DNA from: Alistipes sp. CAG:268 | GTDB lineage: Bacteria; Bacteroidota; Bacteroidia; Bacteroidales; Rikenellaceae | DNA: 9,958 nucleotides | Reading direction: 5' to 3' | NCBI GenBank assembly: GCA_000434235.1 | Contig: FR892007.1 | Location: 48,680-58,637, forward strand | Shown here: positions 4,646-9,523 of the stretch, piece by piece | Layout of the letters: every line of letters starts with the position of its first letter | Numbering within the stretch: the first letter of the stretch is position 1 | Made by a program: the position numbers and the translations under genes | Notes under the pieces: generated by a model | What the model saw: the letters and a program-made list of their open reading frames with translations, nothing else | The model's database searches: none | What the model was told of the DNA's origin: nothing

Positions 4646-4770
4646 GGGATGCCCACAGGCTGATCGTATGCCTGACGCACACCTCCAACCGGATAACCGG
4701 GGAGGAGCAGGCAGGCGGAAGAGCGGGTCTTACCCATAAAGAACAGACGGTTCTTCGACGCAAAACGACA

Positions 4771-4800
4771 AAAAAAGCCCGCATGATGCGGGCTTTTTTT
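4771..4800 (+). terminator. Intrinsic terminator (possibly bidirectional)
   Basis: Stem GCCCGCA (4777-4783), loop TGA, stem TGCGGGC (4787-4793), followed by seven T (4794-4800) and preceded by seven A (4770-4776). This is a textbook rho-independent terminator for the ileS/dksA-like transcript on the plus strand. The A-run would make it work on the minus strand too. It lies about 180 nt after the stop codon at 4594, so the transcript has a long 3' untranslated region. Confidence 0.9.
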
Positions 4801-4855
4801 GTCATCCGCCACATTCGGATACCGACCATCCATACTTTTTCGGCGAAAAATACGT

Positions 4856-4863
4856 TATCTTTG
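4856..4863 (+). promoter_or_regulatory. TATCTTTG -7-like box immediately before the outer-membrane gene
   Basis: A perfect TAnnTTTG match ends 5 nt before the ATG at 4869, with no clear TTG at the expected -33 position (about 4834). If used, transcription would begin at or within a few bases of the start codon, giving a leaderless mRNA. If not used, the true promoter must lie between the terminator (ends 4800) and here; I see no other good match in that 55-nt stretch. Confidence 0.45.
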
Positions 4864-4868
4864 AACCG

Positions 4869-6743
4869 ATGTTTACCCGGTTCTGCATATCCGCATTGAC
4901 CTTGCTCGCTGTGGCGTCCGTCTCCTTTGCCCGCGTCGCGGGTCCCGATATGCGCTCACCGAAACGGCCTCATTCCGACAGCATACGGATCCGGCCTACG
5001 GCCCTCTTCACCCCGGACAGCGCCCGCATCTCGAACCCCGAAGCGGCTGAACGCAACAAAAGGCTCTACGACAGCATACGCTCGAAGACCACCCGCCGGC
5101 GTGTCCCCCGCATGCTTTACCGCATGCTTTTCGTCCGCCCGGTGCTGGACACGACGTCGAACGGAACCGTCAGGGATGAGAGCCGCCAGCTCGAACCCTA
5201 TGCCGGCAAAACGATCGGATCGATCTCCATCGAACGCTCACAGGTCTTCGACGAAAACGGCAACTGGCTCGAACGCGCCGGCAACAACACCCACATGCTG
5301 ACCCGCGAGCGGGTCATCCGCCGCGACCTGCTCTTCCGCACGGGCGATACCCTCGACCCGCAACTCGTCGTGCGCAACAAGCAACTGCTGCGCTCGCGCA
5401 GCTACATCGCCGACGTGGACATCGCCATACAGACCGACACGCTCGACACCACACAGGTACACCTCACCGTAAAGACGCGCGACAGCTGGACCATCTCCGT
5501 AGACGGAGCGCTCCACTCCGAAGGGCGCACGATGGTCGGGATCTCCGACGCCAACATCTTCGGATGGGGCAACAGTCTGAAGGTGATGACCAACTTCAGC
5601 CGCAAGGACTTCTCCTACGGCGGCAACATGGTCGAATACGAAATCCCCAACCTGCTGGGTACCTTCTACACGGCCGATTTCGCCGCCGGGCGCGACTTCT
5701 ACAACTCGACCCTCGAACTGGGCATGCGCAAGGAGTTCCTCCGCCCGACAGACTACGAGTTGGGCATTACCTACAGCGACAACAAGGCCAAACGATACAT
5801 GATCGAGGAGGACTCGTCGGAACTGGTCAAGGAGCGCAACCTCGACGTATGGGGAGGCTACTCGCACTACCTGCGGGGAATCCGCTCAAGCGTCTATCTC
5901 ACCGGGCGCTACAACTACCGCCGCGTCAGCCTCCGCCCGCCCGTGGCCGTCGATTACAACCCTGCCCTGCACGACCAGGACGTCCTGCTCCTCGGCGCCG
6001 GTCTCTACCGCGAGCGGTTCTATACGGCCAACATGGTCTATGGGTTCGGTTCGCGCGAGTACCTGGCGACAGGCTACAAGGCGGAGTTGGTAAGCGGCTA
6101 TTCATGGGGCGAGTTCAAGGATGCCATGTATCTGGGAATGAGCTACGAAACGGGCGGATTCTCCCGTTTGGGCTACATCATGGGCGGAGTGACGCTCGGA
6201 AGCTACATCGACCTGCAGTCGGGCATGTGGCGGCAGAGCGCCGTGGATGTCGATCTGAGGTGGTTCTCGAATCTGTTCCTGTTCCGCCGGAGCCGCATCC
6301 GCCAGTTCCTCTCGTTCAACTACACCCAAGGATGGAACCGTGTCGGGGGCAGCGACGAAAGCATCCGGTTCACCAGTGAAAACGGACTGCAGGCCCTCAA
6401 CGAATACGTCATCGGCACCAACCGGATGATCATCAACACCGAGACCGTCGTCTTCACCCCCTACCAGCCGCTGGGATTCCGCATCGCCTTCTTCGGATTC
6501 GCCGACTTCGGCCTGCTGGGATACTCACCCAACATCTTCAAGAACGACTTCTTCACCTCGTTCGGATTCGGCGTAAGGCTGCGCAACGAGCGCCTCGTGT
6601 TCAACACGATCCAGATCCGGCTGGGGCTGGCACTGGGCAAACACGGACTGGTCGAGAGCGAATACTTCCGGCTGTCGAACGCCACACGGCTCGAGCAATA
6701 CCGTTACCGCCCGACACGACCCGAGATCGTAGGTTTCGAATAA
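4869..6743 (+). CDS. Outer-membrane beta-barrel protein with POTRA-like domain (BamA/TamA-like)
   Basis: A 624-residue predicted outer-membrane protein. Residues 1-21 form a clear signal peptide (MFTRF, hydrophobic core ALTLLAVASVSFA, cleavage probably after SFA); no lipobox Cys follows. Residues 22-110 are a basic, low-order linker. Residues about 115-205 look like a single POTRA domain: KTIGSISIERSQVFDENG, then helices RERVIRRDLLFRTGDTLD and PQLVVRNKQLLRSRSYI, then DVDIAIQTDT and QVHLTVKTRDSW. The rest (206-624) is rich in alternating aromatic/Gly strands such as GWGNSLKVMTNFSRKDF and FGFADFGLLGYSP, as in Omp85-type barrels. It is shorter than BamA (five POTRAs), so it is not the main assembly factor; a specialised export or assembly role is possible but not shown. 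The start at 4869 is required for the signal peptide; the next in-frame ATG (residue 28) would lose it. It converges with the protease gene downstream. Confidence 0.85.
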   Translation: MFTRFCISALTLLAVASVSFARVAGPDMRSPKRPHSDSIRIRPTALFTPDSARISNPEAAERNKRLYDSIRSKTTRRRVPRMLYRMLFVRPVLDTTSNGTVRDESRQLEPYAGKTIGSISIERSQVFDENGNWLERAGNNTHMLTRERVIRRDLLFRTGDTLDPQLVVRNKQLLRSRSYIADVDIAIQTDTLDTTQVHLTVKTRDSWTISVDGALHSEGRTMVGISDANIFGWGNSLKVMTNFSRKDFSYGGNMVEYEIPNLLGTFYTADFAAGRDFYNSTLELGMRKEFLRPTDYELGITYSDNKAKRYMIEEDSSELVKERNLDVWGGYSHYLRGIRSSVYLTGRYNYRRVSLRPPVAVDYNPALHDQDVLLLGAGLYRERFYTANMVYGFGSREYLATGYKAELVSGYSWGEFKDAMYLGMSYETGGFSRLGYIMGGVTLGSYIDLQSGMWRQSAVDVDLRWFSNLFLFRRSRIRQFLSFNYTQGWNRVGGSDESIRFTSENGLQALNEYVIGTNRMIINTETVVFTPYQPLGFRIAFFGFADFGLLGYSPNIFKNDFFTSFGFGVRLRNERLVFNTIQIRLGLALGKHGLVESEYFRLSNATRLEQYRYRPTRPEIVGFE

Positions 6744-6764
6744 GGGGCTCGCGGAAAAACAGGA

Positions 6765-6792
6765 AGCGGGGCCGCTGACCGACGCCCCCGCT
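6765..6792 (-). terminator. Hairpin between converging genes, likely terminator
   Basis: AGCGGGG (6765-6771) pairs with CCCCGCT (6786-6792), a 7-bp GC-rich stem with a 14-nt loop. On the minus strand it is followed after a few bases by TGTTTTT (complement of 6755-6761), which suits a terminator for the protease operon. On the plus strand a T-run at 6806-6810 is further off, so it may also serve the outer-membrane gene, more weakly. Confidence 0.55.
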
Positions 6793-6824
6793 CCCGAACA
6801 TGAACTTTTTATTTCGTATCCGGT

Positions 6825-8775
6825 CTATTTGCGTGTCTTGATCTCCACCACACCCTCGCTTGCCTGCTCGCCATAGCGGCGCACGGCCTTCTTGCCCGTG
6901 AGAACCTCCATGTGGCGGATCTTCTCGGGATCGAGCCGATCGACCTCTTCCGACGAAGCCTCGCGGCCGTCGATGTAGACTTTCATCCCGGCAAAGGCAC
7001 CCTTCCCGATCGAGGCATTCCGGATCACGATGCCCAACCCGTCTTCCGATCCGAGCCGGTCCGAAAGTTTGTCCCGATCCGAGCCGGTCGGAAAGTTTGT
7101 CCAGTTCCTTGAGCCGAAGCTGGGCCTCCTTCCATTCGTCGCTGTTGAAATACTCGCCGGATGCCTCCATCTTGCGCAGAGCCTCCTGCCACTCATCGCT
7201 CTTGAAATAGGCATCCATCTTACGCTGGGTCTCCTTCCATTCGTCACTGTTGAAATACTCGCCGGATGCCTCCATCTTGCGCTGGGCCTCCTTCCACTCG
7301 TCGCTCTTGAAATACTCCTCCATTCGGTCGAGGCTGCGCAACACCTCCTTTCCCTCCTTACTTTCAAAATAGGCCCGGGCCTCCTCCGGCGAAAGGACGC
7401 GCACACCGTCCGACTTCTTCTTGGTCCGGATCTCAATGACACCCTCGTACCCCTGACCGGCATATTCCGAGGGAATATTGTCTTTACCCTTGAGGACCGA
7501 GACGGATTCGATCCGCCCGGGATCCAGCGAACCGATCTCCGGCACACGCTCCCCGTCCACCAGGTAGAGCACATGCTCCGGCAGGGCCCCTTCTTTACCT
7601 CCAATGTGGATTGGAGCATCGTCCGAGGAAGCATAGCCGACAACGGTAACATCGTCCGCATCAGATTGTGGCGTCCCATTTCCCTCTTTCTTGAGTTCGA
7701 CCAGAACCACCCCGTTGCGACCCTTGTCGCCGTACATCCGGATTGCAGTAGAATCCTTCAATACCGTGATCGACTGAATCCGCTCGGGAGTGATATCGTT
7801 GATCGAGGATGCAGGCTGCTCCCGGCCATCGACCAGGACCAACGGATCGGCACCATCGGGGGCCGATGTACGGATTTTCAGATTTTCTTTCTTACCTTTG
7901 TCCTCCGGAAAGAGATAGACGGTTTCGGCAAAGGCCCCGAGAGCCAGCGCCGTGAGCGGCAGGAGCAAAAGCACGCGGGCTCCGGTCCACCGAGACGATT
8001 TTTTTCGCAACATCATGGTAATACGGTTTTTAAGTTTACTGTGATTGAAGCTGTTGGCAATTGAGTACCACCTCCCGCCAACAGCTTTCCTTATAAGAAG
8101 CAACTGGTAACTTTTCGCATCGATACCGCTCGAAATCACCGCCTCGTCGGCCTCGTATTCGTGGATATCGCGCAATTCGCGCCGCAGGAGCCACATGGCC
8201 GGATTGAACCACTGGAGGCACCCGCAGAGATCCGTGAGCAGCAGGTCGGCCGAATGGTGCATGCGGACATGGGCCCGCTCGTGGAGCAGGATCGCCTCGC
8301 CGCAAACCGCCCGGTCGCGGTCGGAGAGCACGATGAAGCGCCCCCAGCTGAACGGCCGTACCGAATCGCCGGCATGTACCAGGACGGTCCCGTCATCGAG
8401 CCGCTCGCGGCGGTCGCAACGGCTGATCTGCCGGGCCACACCGCCCAACGACCAGCAGAGCCGCACGAACGCCCCTGCCACTCCCACGGCAAAGAGTCCT
8501 CCGAGCAGCCGCTCCCACGGGAACGCATGGCCTTCAGCCGGAAGGTCCGCCGCGGTGGAAACGGCCGGTAAAGCCGAAACGGGCAGCGCAGGCAGCGTCC
8601 GGTAGACCGTGATGACGCAGAGCGGCAGCACGAACGAGAGCACGATGGCCCCCAGTACCACGATGCGGTTGAACCGATGGAAGGTCTCGCGGCTCAGCAG
8701 CAGTTTGAAGAAGAGGTAGAAAACCGCCAGGCAGGCCCCGACCTTCAGGCTGTATATCGCCAGATCGTACCACAT
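6825..8775 (-). CDS. M56 (BlaR1-type) membrane metalloprotease with plug-like repeats, frameshifted near its 3' end
   Basis: Membrane zinc protease that in BlaR1/MecR1 systems senses a signal and inactivates the partner repressor. Membrane segments are near residues 4-27, 35-58, 88-110 and 265-283. The zinc motif HERAH is at 165-169 (in AILLHERAHVRMHH), and the third ligand is probably E206 in IHEYEADEAV. There is no penicillin-binding sensor domain. The periplasmic part instead has TonB-plug-like repeats (residues 309-362 and 400-454, each with VDG, I.S..VLK, YG or YAG, and GV) and helices built from YF[K/N]SDEW units (488-557). After LSDRLGS (residue 567) the frame is broken by a 28-bp duplication. 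Read on, this frame adds about 157 unrelated residues and stops at 6601, inside the opposite gene. The other frame gives a third plug-like repeat (6828-6989) ending at TAG 6825. Without one copy the protein is 640 residues. It starts 2 nt after the repressor stop, so the two are surely co-transcribed. Confidence 0.85.
6828..7046 (-). other. Out-of-frame 3' part of the M56 gene (third plug-like repeat)
   Basis: This stretch continues the protease in the -28 frame: it begins EDGLGIVIRNAS and ends VVEIKTRK before TAG. Residues MKVYIDG, LDPEKIRHMEVL, RRYGEQASEGVVEIK align by eye with the two in-frame plug-like repeats. Its good preservation means the frame was lost recently, or is lost only in part of the population, or the break is a sequence error. 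Confidence 0.8.
7047..7102 (-). repeat. 28-bp direct tandem duplication causing a frameshift
   Basis: Two adjoining 28-bp copies, 7047-7074 and 7075-7102, differ at one base (C at 7062, G at 7090). Because 28 is not a multiple of 3, the second copy shifts the M56 frame. Each copy, read in its own correct frame, encodes DKLSDRLGS, and the one difference is silent there (Ser TCC against TCG). Confidence 0.95.
7105..7314 (-). repeat. 105-bp tandem repeat, two copies, within the M56 gene
   Basis: Residues 488-522 and 523-557 are two 35-residue copies (7210-7314 and 7105-7209). Each is a K-type unit (YFKSDEW...RKMEASGE) followed by an N-type unit (YFNSDEWKE). They are near-identical in DNA over most of their length, showing recent duplication, and diverge at the end of the second copy. 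The units are short, charged and amphipathic, probably helical. Confidence 0.9.
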
Positions 8776-8777
8776 GG

Positions 8778-9149
8778 CTACCGTTGGTTCTGGTTTTCGA
8801 TGCGGTCGATCAACTCGCGCAGCTCATCGACCGAGATCTTCTCCTCCTCGACAAGCGCCGAGACGGCCCCCAGGTAGGAATTCTCGAAATAGCGGCTGAT
8901 GACGCTGCCGAGCGTCTGCCGCGAAAACTCCTCCTCGCTCACCAGCGGATAGTATTGGTAGGTCGCACCATAGGCCTTGTGCCCCACATAGCCCTTCGAT
9001 TCGAGGGCCCGAACCATGGTGGACAGGGTGTTGAAATGGGGTTTGGGCTCGGGCGCCATCTCCACCAGCTCGCGCACGAACAGCGGTCCCCGCTCCCAGA
9101 AGCAGCGCATCAGCTCCTCCTCGCGCCGTGTCAGTTTTTCCATCGTCAT
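8778..9149 (-). CDS. BlaI/MecI/CopY-family transcriptional repressor
   Basis: A 123-residue winged-helix repressor. Residues 5-70 form the DNA-binding domain: LTRREEELMRCFWERGPLFVREL, recognition helix in HFNTLSTMVRALESKGYV (38-55), and the beta-wing HKAYGATYQYYPLVS. Residues 72-121 form the helical dimerisation part. The family binds operator dyads as a dimer and is removed when its M56 partner is activated. The Asn-Phe cleavage site known from staphylococcal BlaI/MecI is not visible at the matching place (VSALVEEEKIS), so cleavage, if any, is elsewhere. The ATG at 9149 is used; an ATG two codons later (9143) is an equally good start. It lies 2 nt before the protease gene, and two AACTA/TAGTT dyads at its promoter suggest autoregulation. 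No beta-lactamase gene is in view, so the target beyond itself is unknown; the blaI name is avoided for that reason. Confidence 0.95.
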   Translation of the reverse strand: MTMEKLTRREEELMRCFWERGPLFVRELVEMAPEPKPHFNTLSTMVRALESKGYVGHKAYGATYQYYPLVSEEEFSRQTLGSVISRYFENSYLGAVSALVEEEKISVDELRELIDRIENQNQR

Positions 9150-9331: not shown

Positions 9332-9523
9332 CTACTCCTCGTCGCGGTACATGTGCTCCACGTAGATGGCGTGCATCATGGCCTCGCGCTTTGCAACGGA
9401 GGGCTTCGTGAAGTACTGACGACGGCGGAGCTCCTTCAGGACACCCGTACGCTCGTATTTACGCTTGAACTTCTTTAGGGCGCGCTCGATGTTTTCGCCC
9501 TCTTTTACCGGCATGATAATCAT
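9332..9523 (-). CDS. rpsU: 30S ribosomal protein bS21
   Basis: A 63-residue basic protein of the small ribosomal subunit, with the typical bS21 sequence: MIIMPVKEGENIERALKKF at the N-terminus, KRKYERTGVLKELRRRQYFTKPS in the middle and a C-terminal helix REAMMHAIYVEHMYRDEE. Length is normal for Bacteroidota. In this phylum bS21, with bS18 and bS6, helps hide the anti-Shine-Dalgarno tail of 16S rRNA. The first ATG is used; an ATG at codon 4 is an alternative and would start at PVKEG as in many relatives. The upstream 27 nt are A-rich with no Shine-Dalgarno sequence. It follows the helix-hairpin-helix gene closely and may share its transcript, or use a promoter inside that gene. Its own terminator follows. 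Confidence 0.97.
   Translation of the reverse strand: MIIMPVKEGENIERALKKFKRKYERTGVLKELRRRQYFTKPSVAKREAMMHAIYVEHMYRDEE

Follow-up and report, generated by a model that had tools for sequence, protein, structure and literature searches.

The systems described to date that come closest to the locus considered here are the BlaR1/MecR1 sensor-proteases of Staphylococcus, which are paired with the BlaI/MecI repressors, and the plug domains of the SusC/RagA-type TonB-dependent receptors. The sensor of BlaR1 is a penicillin-binding domain, and passages of a study on Staphylococcus aureus BlaR1 (PMC9834060) describe both a self-cleavage in the loop before the last membrane helix and the freeing of the sensor by signal peptidase behind that helix. 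The window, i.e., the whole stretch of 9,958 nucleotides that was analyzed, carries on its minus strand a gene pair with the same elements: an M56 domain with the HExxH motif, which is preceded by membrane helices and followed by one more, and, immediately upstream of the gene, a repressor gene of the BlaI type. In place of the penicillin-binding domain, however, the M56 gene has plug-like domains and helical repeats. These plug-like domains are similar in sequence to those of SusC homologs and RagA; unlike the receptors, the M56 protein is without an outer-membrane barrel, and its plug-like units are repeated behind the membrane helix. The generic BlaR1 model of NCBIfam (blaR1_generic) gives 24.7 bits against a cut-off of 400, which places the gene outside the curated model, and the MecI models give 35.2 and 31.2 bits against a cut-off of 250. 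Judged from sequence, the layout resembles that of BlaR1–BlaI, and no role in beta-lactam sensing or drug resistance is claimed for it. An equation of part of this protein with the self-cleavage loop of S. aureus BlaR1 was considered and dropped, as the alignment ends before the loop region. The parts of the gene pair, in the order in which they are read, are as follows:

8778–9149, minus strand: repressor gene of the BlaI/MecI type, lying upstream of the M56 gene (Pfam PF03965, 97.5 bits, cut-off 22.6)
6601–8775, minus strand: M56 gene in its present form, an open reading frame of 724 codons
8011–8298, minus strand: M56 peptidase domain, residues 160–255, with HERAH at 165–169 (Pfam PF05569, 49.2 bits, cut-off 31)
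7708–7899, minus strand: first plug-like domain, residues 293–356 (Pfam PF07715)
7423–7572, minus strand: second plug-like domain, residues 402–451 (from secondary structure in the model of the relative P0003)
7090–7389, minus strand: helical repeats with SDEW motifs, residues 463–562, containing the 105-bp array at 7119–7314
7074–7101, minus strand: the 28-bp copy reached first by the ribosome, in frame, with the serine codon TCC
7046–7073, minus strand: the 28-bp copy reached second, not in the frame set by the start codon, with the serine codon TCG in its own frame
6825–7070, minus strand: third plug-like domain together with the native stop codon, in a different frame from the start codon

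In the linker that leads to the third plug-like domain of this BlaR1-like gene, two 28-mers stand head to tail at 7046–7073 and 7074–7101, with 27 of their 28 bases identical. The tandem duplication that an earlier note had described is thus present in the sequence as given; its former placement at 7047–7102 caught the same repeat but slid by one base, position 7102 being the first base of the unit. Tandem Repeats Finder returns the same 28-bp array, and the repeat is not a product of chance, since in 20 mononucleotide shuffles of the window adjoining 28-mers agreed, at best, in 15–18 of 28 bases. The breakpoints have a single base in common. The sole difference between the copies, TCC versus TCG, leaves serine in each copy's own frame and is silent in just the manner previously pointed out; TCC, as in the copy met first, is also the codon of all three sister species described below, those of loci L102 and L104 among them.

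The frame that begins at the start codon is open past the repeat down to 6601, so that about 157 of its 724 codons are out of frame, with the last of these lying antisense to the neighboring gene. Because it stays open for this long behind the first copy, the expected product of the sequence as it stands is mis-tailed rather than short; of the truncated sensor that had been proposed, therefore, the broken frame stands and the truncation does not. The third plug-like domain behind the break is well kept, as had been recognized: taken as a separate piece in its own frame, it matches the Pfam Plug family at 6849–7043 with 26.8 bits against a cut-off of 23.9. The continuous frame of 640 codons that had been predicted upon removal of one copy agrees with the relative P0003, which has 640 residues and one linker copy. 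This protein, the best match in a first search of which the best 120 of 7710 matches were listed, represents 193 member sequences and equals the window in 557 of 557 residues before the break and in 80 of 81 after it. Its predicted model (mean pLDDT 63, pTM 0.37) served for domain borders only: the helices stop at residue 562, the third plug-like domain lies at 589–638, and the linker around the duplication, behind the helical-repeat block, has a pLDDT below 50 at residues 558–579. Going by these modeled borders, the frame break takes away one whole terminal domain. Length changes are common in this part of the gene, since the adjoining 105-bp array varies between close proteins in its count of SDEW motifs, with values between 2 and 6 in the 16 full-length ones.

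The linker was counted in 205 proteins returned by the first and third searches, among the matches listed. It is found in 35 of these, in one copy every time, and 34 of the 35 have the native C-terminal end. Among the 30 closest proteins, 27 have one linker copy with the native end and three (P0025, P0029, and P0093) are without the linker; two copies were seen in none of these 30 and in none of the 35, in a database clustered at 90%, where two-copy members could hide behind one-copy representatives. The out-of-frame tail (residues 560–724 of the frame) was likewise sought among 863 candidates and found in none at E 0.001. Three sister species, which by ileS DNA are the nearest (93, 92, and 92% identity) among 180 genomes from the genus to which G002, the Alistipes montrealensis genome with locus L035, belongs, have the M56 gene in an open frame with one linker each. 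In the M56 search, Alistipes accounts for most of the nearest named loci. By these comparisons the window is Alistipes-like, and none of the genomes found belongs to its own species. No close relatives of the M56 protein were found in viral contigs and no high-identity copy of its gene in plasmids, and the 28-mer was absent from viral contigs and from the 114 loci searched. Frame breaks of other kinds were observed in P0025, P0093, and P0128, in the SDEW repeats, in an A run behind the conserved stretch described below, and behind the linker.

The relatives also differ in which part of the gene they resemble. The first half is 53–56% identical to the three sister species and up to 71% identical to other Alistipes loci, whereas the third plug-like domain is 72–75% identical to the sisters and at most 52% identical to the other genome loci listed. 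Since the kinship of the two halves disagrees, parts of the M56 gene have been exchanged or replaced between species. Set against 6601–8775, the sister loci L102, L104, and L107 are nearest in the third plug-like domain and far in the protease half.

As the linker is single-copy in all relatives found, the duplication would be private to one strain, and as these relatives are intact and the third domain is undecayed, the comparison indicates that the break is recent or not real. This is the opposite of relatives sharing the broken frame and decaying further, the pattern that the earlier note had named as telling against its own proposal of a switch. We lean, at about even strength, toward a private and recent duplication by slippage in one strain, as distinct from a reversible switch. 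Slippage would have copied the 28 bp in a real cell, and the last periplasmic plug-like domain would be missing from the mis-tailed protein, with the protease and the first two plug-like domains still readable. It sits less easily with this reading that the copies already differ by one base though the gene is otherwise nearly unchanged, a difference that fits an assembler's join of two strain variants at least as well, and the single base shared by the breakpoints offers little for slippage. Such a join, in which contig ends of two co-occurring strains were put together without merging a 28-bp overlap, is a serious contender, to which we give a little under an even chance. It would account for one silent difference between the copies in a gene without decay elsewhere, and the window fits a metagenome record. 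Moreover, the gene looks hard to assemble: in six returned proteins a foreign-looking first half is joined on at a conserved 45-bp stretch, 28 of the 205 returned proteins start exactly at MMLR behind that stretch, mostly on short contigs, and there are the other frame breaks in P0025, P0093, and P0128. Nevertheless, a 56-bp tandem is short enough to be spanned by ordinary reads, the chimera-like joins are separated from the repeat by 0.9 kb, with two of them occurring on contigs of 57 and 234 kb. The earlier note was right to have kept simple decay or assembly error as options, misassembly being nearly as likely as slippage.

The tandem layout of a unit whose length is not divisible by three, next to an in-frame array that varies in copy number between relatives, speaks for a reversible on/off switch, wherein the unit is gained and lost by slippage and full-length and mis-tailed sensors coexist. 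The relatives argue strongly against it, for the linker-bearing proteins are single-copy in 35 of 35 cases and no representative has the off-frame tail (863 candidates, E 0.001); with just two imperfect copies and one shared breakpoint base besides, a switch is improbable. Even less should be expected of a 30-bp, ten-residue in-frame repeat that lost 2 bp and left the present remnant. The idea drew on the copy difference being silent in each copy's own frame; a single silent change within 28 bp does not count as evidence that both copies were selected, and the single linker unit in 35 of 35 proteins and three of three sister species makes such an ancestry very improbable. The duplication itself is an ordinary event, and its main lesson is a caution against inferring switches from single assemblies.

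The six joined proteins (P0018, P0022, P0023, P0024, P0025, and P0027) have a first half unlike that of the window and a second half nearly equal to it, and in all of them the junction falls at or near the residues NSFNHSKLKNRITMM. They are recombinants or assembly chimeras. Species have the DNA of this stretch nearly base for base alike, and it is for this reason that assemblies break and misjoin there. The features of this part of the gene are the following:

8011–8055, minus strand: 45-bp stretch with conserved silent positions, ending in ATGATG, in the same gene at 0.9 kb from the repeat
8048–8087, minus strand: predicted RNA hairpin, upstream of the 45-bp stretch and overlapping it (from folding and alignment)
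8011–8016, minus strand: ATGATG, proposed internal start codons, residues 254–255, in frame
7927–8016, minus strand: signal-peptide-like stretch MMLRKKSSRW...GAFA, residues 254–283 (from sequence)

Together, the constrained silent sites, the predicted hairpin, and ATGATG occupy a wider region at 8005–8091 of the minus strand. With up to three mismatches allowed, the 45-bp stretch is found once each in 48 of the 180 genomes of the genus, and in 27 of these 48 it matches at every base; the stretch written backwards, as a control, is found in none of the 180. Among 295 genomes drawn from the order, it is present in one, the center genome itself. Across 56 distinct M56 genes, the codons AAC, AGT, and AAA are each fixed (56 of 56), whereas equally conserved protein motifs elsewhere in these genes vary at their silent sites. 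When scored over 45 Alistipes-type genes, with Prevotella-type and short rows dropped and only a part of the gene scored, the silent sites reach 0.78 over 21 sites at the stretch versus 0.26 over 89 other sites, a contrast with a Mann–Whitney p of 2e-8 that ignores kinship and neighboring sites. A control in the same loci points the same way, with the best ten-site window at 0.88 in M56 (25 sequences) as against 0.58 in ileS (26), 0.54 in dksA (33), 0.51 in the outer-membrane gene (59), and 0.34 in blaI (61). The constraint on silent sites is the firm result of these alignments. Exchange at the joint between the gene halves is a possible cause of the stretch, but alone it would not explain the covarying bases of the hairpin. 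No Rfam family was found at the conserved element, and a literature search with partial coverage returned no report of such an intragenic element.

The hairpin in the window folds with −26.1 kcal/mol for 91 nt (z −2.6), and 2 of 200 shuffles are as good. Its core of 11 pairs is kept in 94.5% of the cells in 46 aligned sequences, and controls with the core slid along the alignment are far worse. Double-sided changes in the core fill 26 cells compared to 6.9 in shuffles (0 of 500 as many), and just two pairs carry them; counted by pairs with double changes (2 versus 1.7) or by pair types (10 versus 10.4), there is no excess over shuffles. On a tree of 62 rows, the pair with the best covariation is formed in 58 of them, and its A–U and C–G forms give 5 and 1 independent contrasts, too few for significance. 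The 13-bp hairpin that the window has is not conserved over its full length, two pairs in its middle failing in 27 of the 46 sequences. An RNA structure at the element is plausible from these alignments and foldings. A second candidate hairpin, pairing alignment columns 47–56 with 71–80, was set aside as weaker, two of its pairs failing in 9 and 12 of the 46 sequences.

Elsewhere in the window, another hairpin-like stretch lies between genes at 4751–4894, before the outer-membrane gene. It draws seven Rfam family matches (up to E 1), all of them below gathering scores, and is probably a terminator.

ATGATG is present in 46 of 46 aligned sequences. Behind it follow, in this order, MMLRKKSSRW, a hydrophobic run, and GAFA, of which A281, F282, and A283 are invariant in 50 aligned relatives; the stretch from MMLR to GAFA looks like a signal peptide. 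Among 30 loci from the order, a motif filter that allowed only M, I, or L at the start site recovered 10 hinges in 9 loci, all 10 with ATGATG and a similar stretch behind it, the 21 unmatched loci being uninformative. Ribosome profiling of Flavobacterium johnsoniae is reported to show that initiation in Bacteroidetes, which are without Shine–Dalgarno sites, is favored by adenines at −3, −6, −12, and −13 (PMC6847099). Upstream of the first of the two ATGs, adenines occupy positions −3 and −6, and AAAAA fills −15 to −11. A start-context matrix, for which 155 predicted starts from 36 loci were used, gives this first ATG a score of 5.29 in 27 of 30 loci, 4.67 in one, and 3.24 in two. Of 1007 other internal ATGs, a background that included ATGs of M56 genes, 0.4% reach such a score, and the predicted starts themselves, which are noisy, have 2.5 as their median and 5.26 as their upper quartile. 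The second ATG has a poor context score. The 28 returned proteins that begin at MMLR count as weak support for an internal start, since contigs may simply break at a stretch common to the species.

Also on the minus strand of the window, at 9332–9523, is a gene for ribosomal protein S21 (Pfam PF01165, 69.9 bits); its start region is A-rich, and no Shine–Dalgarno-like site was seen there.

Taken together, we consider it a tentative possibility, less probable than its absence, that in Alistipes and related Bacteroidales the genes for M56 sensors each encode two proteins, the second being secreted and competing with or tuning the first. Under this proposal, the RNA hairpin and the A-rich stretch inside the coding sequence would drive translation from the internal ATGATG. 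The second product would be a free, secreted sensor with a signal peptide of its own, composed of the plug-like domains and the helical repeats and made besides the full protease-sensor, and it would compete with the membrane-bound sensor or tune it. In such a gene, neither product would keep an intact end in the presence of the 28-bp duplication. The same residues can, however, be read as a membrane helix followed by a cleavage site, with the sensor released from the full-length protein instead, as signal peptidase does with S. aureus BlaR1 (per the passages of PMC9834060), or the Met-Met pair may have been kept for protein reasons. Both of these readings leave the constraint on silent sites without an explanation.

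If two products are indeed made, this might represent a mode of tuning sensors in commensals, and annotation would miss a product in many genomes. Gut Bacteroidales commonly carry BlaI–M56 pairs, for few of which the signal is known. It is the intragenic element, rather than the duplication, that deserves follow-up.

With respect to other known systems, a parallel might be struck for the duplication with the phase-variable tandem-repeat (contingency) genes, which likewise have within their coding sequence a repeat unit that is not a multiple of three. The M56 repeat differs from these in having two imperfect copies and no length variants among the relatives found (35 of 35 single in the 90%-clustered database). 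The intragenic element may instead be compared with the bacterial genes that have an internal in-frame start. The M56 case is distinct from these in that its evidence is comparative only, drawn from aligned sequences; it parallels them in that ATGATG at 8011–8016 combines a start-like context with conserved silent positions.
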